Positions 8,189-13,498 of a stretch of 33,060 nt of DNA are shown here, piece by piece. The stretch comes from Treponemataceae bacterium. GTDB taxonomy: Bacteria; Spirochaetota; Spirochaetia; Treponematales; Treponemataceae. The stretch lies in contig JAILBN010000018.1 in NCBI GenBank assembly GCA_024680915.1, forward strand, positions 1-33,060, read 5' to 3'. Below the pieces are notes generated by a model. The model saw only the letters and a program-made list of their open reading frames with translations, was not told where the DNA came from and did not search any database. The first letter of the stretch is position 1, and each line of letters starts with the position of its first letter. Made by a program: the position numbers and the translations under genes.

Positions 8189-9850
8189 CTACAGCTCCTG
8201 CATCATGGTCCATACGCAGTCACCTGCGTGTTCTATTTTACGCACCATGTCTATGTACTGCAGTTCCTTTTTGACTTCGGAGCCTGATTCCAACCGCTTT
8301 CTGCTTGCCTTCTTCAGTTTCCTTTTCTTGTCGTCAATTTGCTGCTCCAGGTCCTCGCCGGCATTTTTCTCTTCCTGGGTTATTCCCATGGTGAAGAACA
8401 TGCAGGCCTGCTCGAAGAAAACCCGGACCAGCTCCAGATAATCCTGGATTTCCTTTGTCCTGGCATCTGAGGAATCGTAATATTTTCCTGAGATGTATTT
8501 TTTTGCGGTGTGCATGAGGGAGCAGGTCTCGTCACTGAGATTCTCAAGGGTGTCGGTTATGTGAATCAGCTTGGAGAAGTGGCTTCTGTCCTTTGAATTG
8601 GCGTTGGGCTGGCGGGAGCATTTTTCCAAGAAGCCGCTGATGGCAGAGTTCATCTCGTCCACATAATTCTCCAGTATTTCGACCTTTTCTGTCTCAGTCT
8701 CCACCACCTGTGTGTCACTCTTGGAGTTCAGGAAGCTGTTACAGATTGAGTCGAACATCTCCATGACCTTTGAGGCCATCTTTGAAATCTCGCTGTGAAT
8801 CTGGGGAGCGTATAAATCTGCGCTCATCCTGGTGTAGGGGATGATGGCAGGCATGTGATAGTGGGCATCCTCTTCCTTCTTTGAGTCAGGGACAAGCCTT
8901 GTCGCGATAAGGGCAATCTGGTTCACGAAGGGGAGGAAGATAAGAGTGGCACAAAGGTTGAAAATCGTGTGCAGCATGGCTATGTGGGTGGTGATGTTTT
9001 CTGAGGGGTTGCCCGGAATTATAAAGTCTATAAGCTTAAGGAAGGGGGTGAATACAAGGAGGGCGAGAAGGGTGCCGGATACGTTGAAGGCCACGTGGAC
9101 GAATGCTGTCCGCCGGGCATTCGTGGTAGCCCCGAAGCTTGACATGACTGCATCCACTGTGGAGCCGATATTGCTTCCCAGAACTATGGCGGCGCTCAGG
9201 TCCCAGCTTAATGAACCGTTGGCGGCCATGGTCAGGACAATAGCCGTCATGGCTGAGCTTGAGTGGATCAAGGCTGTGATGGCGGCTCCTATAAGGACCC
9301 CCAACAGTATTCCCGGTAGTCCCCAGCCAGAAATCGTGGAAAGAAGCTCTTTCGTCGCATCTCCCAGGGTAAGGCTTTCCTTCAAAAGCCCCAGTCCCAT
9401 GAAAAGCAGGGCGAAGCCCATGAAGCAGTCAGCGAAGTTATGTATACGGAATTTCTTGAAGTATTTAAGGATAAAACCGAAGCCGAAAAGGGGGAGGGCC
9501 GCAGCGGAGATTGAGAAGCTGAAGCCGAAAAAAGAGACAATCCAGGCGGTGACCGTGGTACCGATATTGGCTCCGAAAATAACCCCTATGGCCTGGGACA
9601 GGGTCAGAAGCTCTGCGTTGACAAAGCTGACCACCATAACCGTGGTGGCACCGGAGCTCTGGATAAGAGCCGTTATCCCAAGCCCTGTAAGGACTGCGTA
9701 GAACCTGTTCCCTGTAATCTTTGAGAGCAGCTTTTGAAGACCCCTTCCAGCTCCCTTCTGAATACCGTTGGAAAGCATGTTCATTCCGAAAAGGAGCAGG
9801 CAGAGCGAACCCATAAAGCCGAGAATCTGCCCAGCTATGTTAAATACCAT
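8189..9850 (-). CDS. Na+/phosphate cotransporter with C-terminal PhoU-like domain
   Basis: 553 residues. The N-terminal two thirds are a multi-pass membrane protein with two inverted copies of the family signature: QSSGATTVMVVSFVNA with GANIGTTVTA, and HSSSAMTAIVLTM with GSNIGSTVDA. These are the Na/Pi cotransporter (NptA/YjbB, PF02690) repeats. From about residue 345 the protein is soluble, helical and charged, and matches the PhoU-like tail of bacterial members. It should import or export phosphate with sodium at the inner membrane. It follows the two-component pair on the same strand, and a PhoP-type box sits 46-62 bp before its start, which supports control by phosphate. The ATG at 9850 lacks a good ribosome site; a TATAGT lies 6 bp before it. 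Confidence 0.92.
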   Translation of the reverse strand: MVFNIAGQILGFMGSLCLLLFGMNMLSNGIQKGAGRGLQKLLSKITGNRFYAVLTGLGITALIQSSGATTVMVVSFVNAELLTLSQAIGVIFGANIGTTVTAWIVSFFGFSFSISAAALPLFGFGFILKYFKKFRIHNFADCFMGFALLFMGLGLLKESLTLGDATKELLSTISGWGLPGILLGVLIGAAITALIHSSSAMTAIVLTMAANGSLSWDLSAAIVLGSNIGSTVDAVMSSFGATTNARRTAFVHVAFNVSGTLLALLVFTPFLKLIDFIIPGNPSENITTHIAMLHTIFNLCATLIFLPFVNQIALIATRLVPDSKKEEDAHYHMPAIIPYTRMSADLYAPQIHSEISKMASKVMEMFDSICNSFLNSKSDTQVVETETEKVEILENYVDEMNSAISGFLEKCSRQPNANSKDRSHFSKLIHITDTLENLSDETCSLMHTAKKYISGKYYDSSDARTKEIQDYLELVRVFFEQACMFFTMGITQEEKNAGEDLEQQIDDKKRKLKKASRKRLESGSEVKKELQYIDMVRKIEHAGDCVWTMMQEL

Positions 9851-9895
9851 GACTCAACTATAAAGGAAAAGGCTTTCTCCGGAAAATCAGGTTAA

Positions 9896-9912
9896 TGTTA
9901 AATTTGTGTAAA
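9896..9912 (-). promoter_or_regulatory. PhoP/PhoB-type box ahead of the phosphate cotransporter
   Basis: On the minus strand TTTACA-CAAAT-TTAACA: two TTWACA units 11 bp apart, the layout of PhoP-family direct repeats in Gram-positives. The same arrangement with near-identical flanks occurs at 11998-12014 ahead of the regulator gene. It lies just past the kinase stop codon. Confidence 0.6.
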
Positions 9913-9916
9913 ATTC

Positions 9917-11275
9917 TCATTGGTCCATCGCAGTTCTTCCCCAGATTACCGTAAAGCTGCTGCCTTTGCCTTCTTCCGACTTTACAAGCACATTTGCGTT
10001 ATGGTATTTTGCCGCATGCTTTACGATACTCAACCCCAGGCCTGTTCCTCCCATGGTCCGTGAACGGCTTTTGTCCACCCGGTAAAAGCGTTCGAAAATC
10101 CTCTCCTGCTCCTTCTCCGGAATACCGATTCCTGTGTCTTTTACGGTAAAGATGACTCCTCCTTTATCGGAATCTGTCCTGATCTGTATATTCTGTATCT
10201 TTATGTCCACGGAGCCGCCTTCTTTGTTGTATTTGATGGCGTTGTCGATAAGATTGTAGACCATCTCGTATATTACAGGCTGTACGCCCCTTATCACACC
10301 GCTGTCTCCGCTCAGCTTCATGCTCACGTTTTTTGCGGCAGCACTGGCTGAAAGGACTGTCATAGCCTCCCTGGAGACTTCTCTAAGACTTATCTCTTCC
10401 TTTTCCAGGCTTATGGATTCTTCATCTAACTTCGAGAGCTTTATTATGTCATTCACCAAGGTAATCATTCGCTGGCTCTCGTCATAAATCGATGAGGCAA
10501 AATCCTGGGTGGTCTTTTGATCCGTTTCTCCGGTTTTTAGGATTTCCGCGAAGCCGCTTATGCTTGTAAGCGGTGTTTTAAGTTCATGGCTCACATTGGC
10601 CGTGAACTGCTGCCTTAGCTCCTCCCTCTGCTTTTTCTCAAAGTTCTCCTCGGCAATACGTTTTGTGAAGGGCATTAGCTCATCATAAACCTTCGTGGCT
10701 TCCGGATTCTCCAGATCGATATTGTTGAGTGGGTTCACCACTTTCTTTGATATCCAGCTGGCAGACAAGGCTGAAATGATTATGGCTATTATCAGAATGG
10801 CGACAAGAGTACGGCTCATCCCCAGCACCAGGATCCATACAGAATGCTGGTCGCAGCTTATCCTTATCACGTCTCCGCTCTCTACCTGCTCCGCATAATA
10901 GAGTGTTTTCTCTGTCATTGTGGAGGAATATCGTGATATTTGGTGGGAGCCTTTTGTTATCGCCCCCAGGAATTCCTCTCGGCTTCCATGGTTCTCAAGG
11001 TTCTCTGCTTTGACCTTGTTGTCGAAGTAAACGCTCCCGTCCTTGTGGATCAGCGTGATTCTGTTCTCTGTCTCTATTTTTTTCAGCTCTTCTATGTCAT
11101 TCTCAAGGACATAGTTCTTAAGGAAATTGCTTTCTGTTTTCAGCTCGTGGAAAAGCTGATCCTCAAAATAGCCGTACAGGTTGCTGATGAAAAGGAAGGC
11201 ACAGATTAAATAGACCAGTGTTCCCACAAAAAAGGTATTTATAAAAATACGGAAGGTCAGGGATTTTTGTTTCAT
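9917..11275 (-). CDS. phoR: Sensor histidine kinase, PhoR-like
   Basis: 452 residues. Transmembrane segments are near residues 11-30 and 147-170, framing an extracytoplasmic sensor of about 115 residues. The DHp helix carries the phospho-acceptor His230 in NVSHELKTPLTSISGF. The ATPase domain has the N box (YNLIDNAIKYN), G1 (DTGIGIPEKE), F box (FERFYRVDKSRSR) and G2 (GGTGLGLSIVKH). The order is that of PhoR/ResE-type kinases. The start ATG at 11275 has GGGGAG. The gene begins 9 bp after the regulator stop. The phosphate role is inferred from the downstream transporter and the shared boxes; kinases of this type serve other signals too. Confidence 0.88.
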   Translation of the reverse strand: MKQKSLTFRIFINTFFVGTLVYLICAFLFISNLYGYFEDQLFHELKTESNFLKNYVLENDIEELKKIETENRITLIHKDGSVYFDNKVKAENLENHGSREEFLGAITKGSHQISRYSSTMTEKTLYYAEQVESGDVIRISCDQHSVWILVLGMSRTLVAILIIAIIISALSASWISKKVVNPLNNIDLENPEATKVYDELMPFTKRIAEENFEKKQREELRQQFTANVSHELKTPLTSISGFAEILKTGETDQKTTQDFASSIYDESQRMITLVNDIIKLSKLDEESISLEKEEISLREVSREAMTVLSASAAAKNVSMKLSGDSGVIRGVQPVIYEMVYNLIDNAIKYNKEGGSVDIKIQNIQIRTDSDKGGVIFTVKDTGIGIPEKEQERIFERFYRVDKSRSRTMGGTGLGLSIVKHAAKYHNANVLVKSEEGKGSSFTVIWGRTAMDQ

Positions 11276-11284
11276 TTTTCTCCC

Positions 11285-11953
11285 CTATCTGATTGTGTAT
11301 CCGACACCGCGGATGGTTTCTATCTGTTTTTCGTACTTGCCAAGCTTCTGCCTCAGTGTGCGGATATGAACGTCCACAGTACGGCTTTCTATTTCCGCAT
11401 CTATGTTCCATACTGAGTTCAAAAGCTGTTCCCGTCTGAGGACATGCCCCTTGTTCTCCACCAAAAGGGTCAGCAGGTCGAACTCCTTTACCGTCAGAAA
11501 AATCTGAGTATCGTCCGCAAATACGGTATGCTTTGATATATCTATTCTCAAGGGACCTGCAGTCAGTATTTTTGCTTCTCCCCCTTTCTTCTCGTAGCGA
11601 CGTAGTACAGCCTTTATGCGGGAGACAAGACTCATCATGCCGAAGGGTTTTGTCACGTAATCATCGGCTCCGGAATCCAGTCCTGTGACCACGTCGAATT
11701 CAGTGTCCTTCGCGGTGAGCATGATAACCGGAATGGATTTGTAGCGGTCGTCAGAGCGTATTCTTTTAAGGATCGAAATACCGTCCTCCTCCGGTAGCAT
11801 TATGTCCAGGAGCAGAAGCTCAGGCTTTTCTTTCTCCAGTGCGGTCCAGAAGTCCGAAGGCTTCTCGAACCCGCAGCATTGGAAGTTCTGGCTTTGAAGA
11901 GTATAGATTATTAATTTCCGGATGTTTCCGTCGTCTTCAAGAATATGAATCAT
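11285..11953 (-). CDS. phoB: OmpR-family response regulator, PhoB/PhoP-like
   Basis: 222 residues. The receiver domain has the acidic pair in ILEDDGN, phospho-acceptor Asp50 in LLLLDIMLPEEDG, the switch Thr in VIMLTAKDTE and Lys in VTKPFG. The C-terminal winged helix ends with the family pattern SRTVDVHIRTLRQKLG and ETIRGVGYTIR. It should bind DNA as a dimer after phosphorylation by the adjacent kinase. The upstream box at 11998-12014 predicts autoregulation. The ATG at 11953 gives the normal MIHILEDD start but lacks a clear ribosome site, as does the cotransporter start. Confidence 0.9.
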   Translation of the reverse strand: MIHILEDDGNIRKLIIYTLQSQNFQCCGFEKPSDFWTALEKEKPELLLLDIMLPEEDGISILKRIRSDDRYKSIPVIMLTAKDTEFDVVTGLDSGADDYVTKPFGMMSLVSRIKAVLRRYEKKGGEAKILTAGPLRIDISKHTVFADDTQIFLTVKEFDLLTLLVENKGHVLRREQLLNSVWNIDAEIESRTVDVHIRTLRQKLGKYEKQIETIRGVGYTIR

Positions 11954-12014: not shown

Positions 12015-12069
12015 AGAATACTTTACAATAATCAGAGGAAGAGCTGTATATAGGTATATAGGAAGAATG

Positions 12070-12106
12070 AAAAAAGCCCGGAGTCAATTCGGGGGAGACT
12101 CCGGGC
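12070..12106 (-). terminator. Rho-independent terminator behind the small membrane peptide
   Basis: A perfect 10-bp stem GCCCGGAGTC / GACTCCGGGC with an 11-base loop at 12076-12106, followed on the minus strand by six T (12070-12075). It isolates the small transcript from the regulator gene at 11953. Confidence 0.85.
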
Positions 12107-12148
12107 AAGGATATAATAAACGGCAAGGAGGTTCTTCCGTTTATAGCA

Positions 12149-12235
12149 CTACTGTATTAATGATATAAGCTGCAAAACCAACATCACGAAAACAACGACG
12201 AATAATATAAATTTTTCCCAATCGATTCTCAGCAT
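12149..12235 (-). CDS. Small hydrophobic peptide, 28 residues (possible small membrane protein or type I toxin-like)
   Basis: The frame reads MLRIDWEKF and then an unbroken hydrophobic helix (ILFVVVFVMLVLQLISLIQ) to the TAG at 12149. This is one membrane segment with a charged N-terminus. AGGA lies about 8 bp before the ATG at 12235. The frame is open further up to 12376, but that part is rich in Phe/Cys/Arg and has no better start. A strong terminator follows 43 bp after the stop. A hairpin with an anti-Shine-Dalgarno CCTCC (12118-12142) lies just past the stop. The unit is divergent from the membrane regulator at 12455. Coding is plausible, not proven; no homologue recognised. Confidence 0.5.
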   Translation of the reverse strand: MLRIDWEKFILFVVVFVMLVLQLISLIQ

Positions 12236-12316
12236 AAATAAGATCCTGTTTCTTGTATCTATGAAGAAAAAAAATCTCCTCGGATCAAGCCTTACAAACT
12301 TTTTCCAGTTAATATT

Positions 12317-12382
12317 ACAATACCTACAGCACAGAATCAGCACAAAATTATGGAAAAAAGAGCACAGAATCAGCACAAAATT
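12317..12382. promoter_or_regulatory. Four 11-bp iterons between the small peptide and the membrane SARP-like regulator
   Basis: AGCACAGAATC and AGCACAAAATT sit back to back at 12328-12349, and again at 12361-12382. The second pair is 33 bp after the first, so all copies are in one 11-bp phase. Read on the minus strand, the last iteron is 5 bp from a possible -10, TATTGT (12317-12322), pointing into the small peptide gene. Tandem sites with 11-bp period just upstream of the -10 are the classic layout of SARP-family activators. Confidence 0.65.
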
Positions 12383-12413
12383 GTGAAAAATGAAAGAATT
12401 CCTCTTTTTTTTA

Positions 12414-12422
12414 TGTTATAAT
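12414..12422 (+). promoter_or_regulatory. Extended -10 promoter of the membrane SARP-like regulator
   Basis: TGT-TATAAT, a consensus -10 (12417-12422) with the TGN extension, 33 bp before the ATG at 12455. No recognisable -35. It lies 35 bp after the last iteron. Confidence 0.5.
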
Positions 12423-12454
12423 ACTCAGGAATACCTTTTGAGTTTTTTTTTGAA

Positions 12455-13498
12455 ATGTTTTTTTTGAATTCGATAAGAAATCACTTTAATGAGAAGTTTT
12501 ATATACCTGAATTGGATTTGGCGGATGTGGGGGAAAGTAACAGACTGGTTCTGTTGTTCCTAGGGCCTTGTTTTTTTGTTTTCGGCTTTGTAGATTTTAC
12601 AGTGGTTTTCGTAAGGAATTATTCGAACCTGAAAGATCACCTTGTATCTTTGATTTACTTCAGCATTTTTACGCTTATCAGCATCTATGTATTCATATGT
12701 TCTAAAAAAAACAAGAATATAGACAGGGAAAAGGCTTATATAAAGAAGACTATTCCCTTTTATATGCTTTGCCATACATGTATGCTGGCAGCTCTGTATA
12801 ATTTCTATATTCTTGACCAGCCTTTCAATGGTTATGCCATTTTCTGTTTGACAGGTACCATTTCCCTCTGCCTTTTTTCATTTTCTCCCTTTCCTTTTCT
12901 TATTGGACTGGTACTGGAAATGATTTTTATGGGACCAGGACTTTATTTTAATTTCGGAATAAGCGGGCTGGCTGATGGTATTTTGACTGCTATGGTTATG
13001 TTCTGGATTTCTCTTTATAAAAGAAGGCTGGCAAAAAAGCATTTAATGCTTCTTAAAAAGCAGAAGAAAAATCTGGAAGCAAAGACATTCGGGAATTTTA
13101 CCCTTTTATTTGAAAATAAAATCGTTAAGTTTTCCCGGACCAAATCGAACGAGCTTTTCGGGTATCTAGTATACAAAAAAGGAAGTTCCGTCAACTCAAA
13201 GGAGCTTATCTCAATCCTTTGGGGCGATTCCGCCGATTCTACCCGTTATGGTAATAATCTGCGTAATCTTATTGTTGATATAAAACACACACTAAAGGAC
13301 CTTTCAATTGATTCCGTCTTTATTGCAGAATATAATAATTTCCGCATAAATCCTGAGATTATAAACTGCGACTACTATGATTTCCTTGCTGGTAAGAAAG
13401 AAGCTGTGGACAGCTTTGCCGGCGAGTTCATGAGCCAATACAGTTGGGCTGAGGATGTTTCCGCTTTCCTTGAGATGAAAGCCATAAAAAAAGAATGA
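12455..13498 (+). CDS. Membrane-anchored SARP-like transcriptional regulator
   Basis: 347 residues in two halves. Residues 1-195 contain about six hydrophobic segments (for example VLLFLGPCFFVFGFVDFTVV, LIYFSIFTLISIYVFIC, FPFLIGLVLEMIFM), then a basic KRRLAKKH linker. Residues 210-345 match the winged-helix domain of SARP/OmpR-type regulators and the start of the activator domain: TFGNFTLLFENKIVKF, RTKSNELFGYLVYKKG, LISILWGD, LRNLIVDIKHTLK, then CDYYDFLAG and FMSQYSWAED. The topology suggests a membrane sensor that binds DNA from the inner face, with the order reversed relative to CadC/ToxR. The ATG at 12455 is the first in frame; AGGA is rather far upstream. The 11-bp iterons next to it are a likely target. 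Confidence 0.78.
   Translation: MFFLNSIRNHFNEKFYIPELDLADVGESNRLVLLFLGPCFFVFGFVDFTVVFVRNYSNLKDHLVSLIYFSIFTLISIYVFICSKKNKNIDREKAYIKKTIPFYMLCHTCMLAALYNFYILDQPFNGYAIFCLTGTISLCLFSFSPFPFLIGLVLEMIFMGPGLYFNFGISGLADGILTAMVMFWISLYKRRLAKKHLMLLKKQKKNLEAKTFGNFTLLFENKIVKFSRTKSNELFGYLVYKKGSSVNSKELISILWGDSADSTRYGNNLRNLIVDIKHTLKDLSIDSVFIAEYNNFRINPEIINCDYYDFLAGKKEAVDSFAGEFMSQYSWAEDVSAFLEMKAIKKE

Follow-up and report, generated by a model that had tools for sequence, protein, structure and literature searches.

A membrane-bound activator of the SARP type probably drives, through promoters carrying pairs of GTGC half-sites, both surface lipoproteins and a membrane peptide of 25-30 residues. The stretch of DNA analysed (the window; 33,060 nucleotides) comes from a Treponema-like spirochaete whose genome amounts to 3.15 Mb in 134 contigs, and whose named relatives are uncultured Treponema MAGs. 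The features of the regulator-peptide region, in window coordinates, are these:

13262..13330, plus strand: recognition-helix region of the regulator, residues 270-292 (RNLIVDIKHTL...), in which Asn271 varies with the half-site sequence
12455..13498, plus strand: membrane-bound SARP-type transcription regulator, assigned by its 347-aa ORF, Treponemataceae homologues, AF2 model, and EmbR/AfsR folds
12420..12425, plus strand: TATAAT after a TGT, a possible -10 for transcription of the regulator itself (sequence)
12361..12377, plus strand: iteron pair 2, AGCACAGAATCAGCACA, distal from the peptide
12328..12344, plus strand: iteron pair 1, AGCACAGAATCAGCACA, proximal to the peptide promoter
12317-12312, minus strand: predicted -10, TAATAT, of the peptide promoter, 11 nt past the last GTGC, an offset shared by relatives
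12244..12247, minus strand: AGGA resembling a Shine-Dalgarno sequence, 8 nt ahead of the ATG of the peptide gene (sequence)
12149..12235, minus strand: gene of the 28-aa hydrophobic peptide, MLRIDWEKFILFVVVFVMLVLQLISLIQ, assigned by about 20 homologues and frame conservation
12118..12142, minus strand: hairpin AAACGG-AAGAACCTCCTTG-CCGTTT, with an anti-Shine-Dalgarno-like loop, 3' of the peptide stop (sequence)
12069..12106, minus strand: intrinsic terminator of the peptide transcript, a 10-bp perfect stem (hairpin 12106-12076) and a T run

The modelled structure indicates that the regulator is SARP-type by fold. In the AlphaFold2 model (59-row alignment, mean pLDDT 92.6) long membrane helices span residues 19-206 and the winged helix is C-terminal; residues 1-201 make up a helical membrane module of about six spans plus a long signalling helix, and residues 202-347 a SARP-type winged helix with the first helices of a BTAD-like segment. 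Foldseek returned as its top solved structures the SARPs AfsR (8hvr, 8k60; first) and EmbR (2ff4), with a probability of 1.00. A second structural alignment gave EmbR a Z of 15.1 across residues 202-347 (141 residues, 2.5 A), and the two SARPs lie at Z 13.5-15.1 with the winged helix and the start of the BTAD-like segment aligned, whereas PhoB/OmpR-type domains reach Z 10.3 at most and cover just residues ~203-302. The winged helix aligns with CadC at Z 8.2 and with ToxR at Z 7.9. Sequence profiles barely detect the regulator: the match to Pfam Trans_reg_C is weak and below cut-off, in 12 of 59 members; no PDB chain was found to match by sequence; and searches of Pfam, NCBIfam and PDB sequences placed neither the regulator nor the peptide in a usable family. 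The SARP assignment nevertheless seems right by fold, because of the structural matches to EmbR and AfsR. Since the BTAD is truncated, membership is that of a SARP-like variant.

The two parts of the regulator also occur separately. Its membrane module is common to HD-GYP-type proteins (L187, in the window's genome, and L195) and to a SpoIIE/PP2C-type protein (L196), and its DNA-binding part to REC-type response regulators (L188-L192, L194, L198, L199), these domain names being assigned by inspection. Because both parts recur joined to other domains, we regard the regulator as a modular one-component switch. A Pfam search gave no entry for the membrane module. Its fold resembles the membrane part of the adenylyl cyclases AC8 and AC9 at Z 12.2, a value under the level taken as safe for helical bundles, and is mentioned as a lead only.

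What would such a regulator bind? Between it and the peptide gene lie four GCAC units, at 12329, 12340, 12362 and 12373, in one helical phase with spacings of 11, 22 and 11, so as to build a 30-bp direct repeat of 33-bp period. Two GCAC-N7-GCAC matches in the window alone are not very rare, as 8 of 100 shuffles reach that number. Across the 3.15-Mb genome the 17-mer, allowing at most one mismatch, occurs six times, all within two promoters, the peptide's and that of a lipoprotein (G000:C60:251-371); a reversed control pattern had zero occurrences there. Judged by sequence, the window's iterons and divergent peptide exceed chance expectation. The sequence AGCACNNAATCAGCACA recurs beside regulator homologues and, toward the target gene, reads GTGCTGATTNNGTGC. 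Among 65 non-redundant sites, with a -10 accepted at no fewer than four of six hexamer positions, the hexamer begins exactly 11 nt past the last GTGC in 50 (next commonest offset, 11 sites), and adjacent iteron pairs are most often 33 bp apart. Six exact site matches (L089, L094, L097, L098, L102, L113) have no recognisable promoter or target.

The initial annotation of this DNA had called the regulator a protein of about six membrane segments with a C-terminal SARP-like winged helix, and had placed four 11-bp repeats in phase between it and a divergent hydrophobic peptide, with SARP-like spacing beside a -10. The ORF, its AF2 model and the EmbR/AfsR folds bear out the first of these claims, the four GCAC units the second, and the 50 of 65 sites, whose geometry is that described for SARPs (PMC10936776), the third. 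Its distance of 5 bp from the last repeat to the -10 is to be replaced by the 11 nt that separate the last GTGC from the conserved-position -10, TAATAT.

Site specificity appears to vary with the recognition helix. Regulators with Asn271 face mainly GTGC sites in 18 of 19 cases, and all seven with Leu, Gln, Val or Ala at residue 271 face GTAC or GCGC sites, the link having p 1.2e-5 with no phylogeny correction and roughly four non-Asn lineages behind it.

Regulator homologues (E < 1e-50; full-length or contig-cut) are present in 48 of 274 genomes of the family, often as paralogues or tandem copies; a single-sequence scan of genome contigs recovered just two Treponema loci. Outside the family, a homologue was found in one genome (G340) of another spirochaete family, where regulator, site and lipoprotein are arranged in the same layout. 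One would think from the initial annotation that homologues should have neighbouring iterons and a peptide, and this is true in part. Several have no adjacent iteron and no nearby peptide, among them regulators next to an rluB-like gene and tandem copies, but the exact 16-mer site lies somewhere in 26 of the 48 genomes with a regulator as against 5 of the 226 without one (p 2e-18). Tandem copies occur at G203:C1, G139:C15, G230:C84 and G262:C2, several of them adjoining the gene for an rluB-like pseudouridine synthase without an adjacent iteron, and in some genomes sites are found several kb from the tandem copies. Four otherwise well-conserved regulators contain one in-frame stop (G240:C31:16658-17686, G262:C2:40572-41591, G190:C4:42333-43352, G050:C15:30975-31979), reflecting either decay or assembly error.

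The genes behind the sites are mostly those of lipoproteins or secreted proteins, with InlB B-repeat, bacterial Ig-like, S41 peptidase or M13 peptidase domains; beta-helix-like proteins are among them, as is a SCENFMNGSDVQEQ type that recurs. In two loci the target is, by inspection, a chemoreceptor-like protein. Lipoproteins thus appear to be commoner regulon targets than the peptide, itself one regulon member. The compact circuit first suggested, in which a membrane sensor controls a tiny peptide, retains its SARP fold, its site geometry and its peptide linkage, but the regulon is wider than that proposal supposed.

In the window, the peptide transcript ends at the strong minus-strand terminator (12106-12076), which the initial annotation had missed. 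Adjoining the peptide, at 8189-11953 on the minus strand, are genes for a two-component pair like PhoB/PhoR and for a protein like Na/Pi cotransporters; a similar cotransporter gene lies 3' of the peptide in G173 (L132) as well. Is the functional product of this transcript perhaps the RNA, a short regulated molecule with a CCUCC loop and a terminator, and the peptide secondary? The window transcript contains the CCTCCTT hairpin and scores better in folding than its shuffled versions (z -2.6), and CCTCCTT recurs as a stretch in relatives. In six genomes, moreover, an iteron promoter divergent from the regulator is followed by a highly conserved RNA of ~200 nt (L178, L179, L180, L042, L046 and L050, in G049, G052, G051, G226, G232 and G050), which runs TTGCGGAARTCGGAGAGAGAGTTATTTATAAAAGT ... 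AAACCTCCTTT ... terminator and on which no peptide ORF was detected; its core motif occurs once per genome in five of the six. It is possible that this is a regulated small RNA. Rfam gave nothing for it at gathering scores, and covariation supports its fold thinly, at 2 of 25 pairs. Against an RNA product in general stands the peptide frame itself, which is conserved in stand-alone loci and kept when nested in, or placed behind, a lipoprotein gene. We consider the RNA reading improbable.

Sequence comparison gives good support to the peptide of 28 residues in the initial annotation as the product of a genuine, conserved gene. A single-sequence search found nothing beyond the window's genome at E < 0.05, so that a profile was required, and one was built from 13 peptides, 6 of them nested copies. 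With it the peptide is detected in 19 of the 274 family genomes (E <= 1e-3), and all 19 carry the regulator (co-occurrence p 1e-16). Since 29 of the 48 regulator genomes have no clear peptide, the regulator does not require one. At all of the about 21 clear-scoring loci the two lie on opposite strands, at distances from 79 bp to about 9 kb. The family has 25-30 residues, with start, LQxxS motif and stop conserved across about 20 loci. In stand-alone copies the peptide frame has a mean BLOSUM score of 2.41 per column, against -0.12 (with 38 stops) and 0.17 for the other frames. A SPT_ssu-like match (E 0.0066, below cut-off) was put down to chance hydrophobicity. We also considered a type I toxin, but set this reading aside because of the gene's association with iteron promoters and lipoproteins.

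One might still suspect a spurious ORF, the regulator and its lipoprotein targets alone being of consequence, as AT-rich DNA often has short hydrophobic ORFs. In seven genomes the peptide lies in the +1 frame within the ORF of a beta-helix-like lipoprotein (L053, L118, L122, L078, L057, L175, L182). There hydrophobicity alone proves nothing, because T-ending codons of one frame by default yield hydrophobic residues in the +1 frame. The evidence for a nested gene is instead the conserved start, LQxxS motif and stop, together with synonymous suppression. A profile made from stand-alone peptides only recovers all seven nested copies, at E 4.5e-15 to 1.4e-9, and has no other match below E 0.5 among 547 alternative-frame segments. 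Synonymous change at identical residues is 0.08 within the nested peptide and 0.46 outside, and the lowest of 372 windows of synonymous change fall on the peptide. Exactly where synonymous change is suppressed, the peptide frame is somewhat better kept than that of the lipoprotein (relative BLOSUM 0.79 versus 0.73). These findings, the conservation in about 20 loci and the co-occurrence with the regulator make a spurious ORF extremely unlikely. In the homologous lipoprotein stretch of G340 the +1 frame is open and partly hydrophobic, and the LQxxS motif is absent from it; the nested peptide may therefore derive from such a lipoprotein stretch. Sequence analysis, then, establishes the site, the promoter geometry, the peptide gene, its linkage and its nested copies.

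How might these parts work together? We infer sensing, DNA binding, activation and a peptide function, in the following manner. The helical membrane module would sense a cue, and the long helix would couple it to the SARP-type winged helix, which would reach nearby DNA. There the winged helix would bind one or two GTGC half-site pairs, of 11-bp period and with pairs 33 bp apart, by a weak -10, and the bound regulator would recruit RNA polymerase, in SARP fashion, to promoters pointing away from the regulator. The resulting regulon would be small, consisting of surface lipoproteins and the conserved 25-30-residue single-pass membrane peptide. The window promoter would yield a short, terminator-ended transcript with the peptide only, and the second genomic site would drive the lipoprotein. 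Under the positive-inside rule, a basic N-terminus places the N-terminus inside and the C-terminus outside. The peptide is thus probably oriented with its charged or basic N-terminus inside and LQxxSL near the outer face, and most likely acts in the membrane alongside other regulon parts.

What does the peptide do there? The likeliest single role is feedback on the sensor module, a plausible suggestion that we infer. In the full set, peptide distances track those of the membrane module (r 0.44, Mantel p 0.0004) and not those of the DNA-binding domain (r 0.11). This covariation is significant in the full and stand-alone sets but is gone when the convergent clade is removed and the nested copies are kept, and so is not robust; because it disappears in that subset, it argues weakly for feedback. 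We offer as a tentative proposal that the peptide acts within the membrane on a multi-span SARP-type receptor, as its ligand or as a modulator in feedback, and that the peptide gene shifts between a stand-alone state and one overprinted in a receptor-controlled lipoprotein gene. If so, target and feedback signal would be made from one stretch of DNA.

The main rival to feedback is that the peptide has no action on the regulator, to which it is linked merely as a target, and is a small membrane partner of the regulon lipoproteins in their export, sorting or assembly. The peptide gene lies 14-29 nt behind a lipoprotein or secreted-protein gene in five loci (L041, L044, L056, L184, L186), is nested in a lipoprotein gene in the seven genomes described, and adjoins ENFMNGSDVQEQ-type lipoproteins in other loci. 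In the window, L003, L005 and L013, however, it is directly divergent from the regulator on its own transcript without a lipoprotein, and its tracking, in the full set, of the membrane part of the regulator rather than the DNA-binding part speaks against a mere target. We hold the partner role to be a fair contender short of an even chance; it does not exclude feedback, and both may hold together.

It is unlikely that the peptide is processed into a hydrophobic signal passed between cells and detected by the membrane module, as in Rgg/SHP circuits. The peptides are short and hydrophobic and lie divergent or convergent by locus, as in Rgg/SHP groups I-III (PMC13361665), and most have a conserved acidic residue at position 2. 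Conservation extends over the whole length, however, not merely the C-terminus, and the regulator is a membrane protein rather than a cytoplasmic RRNPP receptor.

These results mark out a regulon, with a predicted operator readable from sequence, and a family of peptides connected with treponeme surface lipoproteins. A bacterial small protein conserved both alone and overprinted offers a natural control for testing out-of-frame genes, and it becomes possible to test directly whether a peptide in the membrane signals to a one-component regulator there. The pairing seems undescribed: we found no description in the open-licence papers searched, most subscription journals lying outside that coverage.

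Several known systems share parts of the arrangement. In SARPs the repeats are 11 or 22 bp apart, with the 3' repeat 8 bp from the -10 (PMC10936776), and the sites described here show the same 8-bp distance when each repeat is counted as a heptamer that begins with GTGC. Likeness to AfsR and EmbR extends to the winged helix, the BTAD-like start and tandem repeats of 11-bp period. The regulator differs in its reversed domain order, with the DNA-binding part C-terminal, in its helical membrane module and partial BTAD, in its spirochaete host, and in having lipoprotein and peptide targets instead of antibiotic clusters.

In ToxR and CadC the winged helix is N-terminal, and a single membrane helix separates it from a C-terminal periplasmic sensor. 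They resemble the regulator in combining sensing and winged-helix DNA binding in a single membrane protein (PMC5430869), but its multi-span module and C-terminal winged helix depart from their layout. Rgg of streptococci is cytoplasmic, and SHP is exported, cut and re-imported. As in Rgg/SHP, where the regulator has beside it the gene of a very short hydrophobic peptide in divergent or convergent orientation (PMC13361665), our loci have the peptide gene near the regulator and site. The regulator, with its membrane module and SARP-type domain, is unrelated to the cytoplasmic HTH-TPR receptors, and the peptide, unlike SHP, appears to be a whole membrane span, whose gene in some loci is nested in that of a lipoprotein.

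In MgrB-PhoQ of enterobacteria, the tiny membrane protein is induced by the signalling system and in turn acts on its membrane sensor (PMC2789325). MgrB acts on a two-component sensor kinase, unlike our peptide with its one-component regulator, and no sequence similarity is claimed; by analogy, the same feedback logic is what we propose for the regulator-peptide pair.
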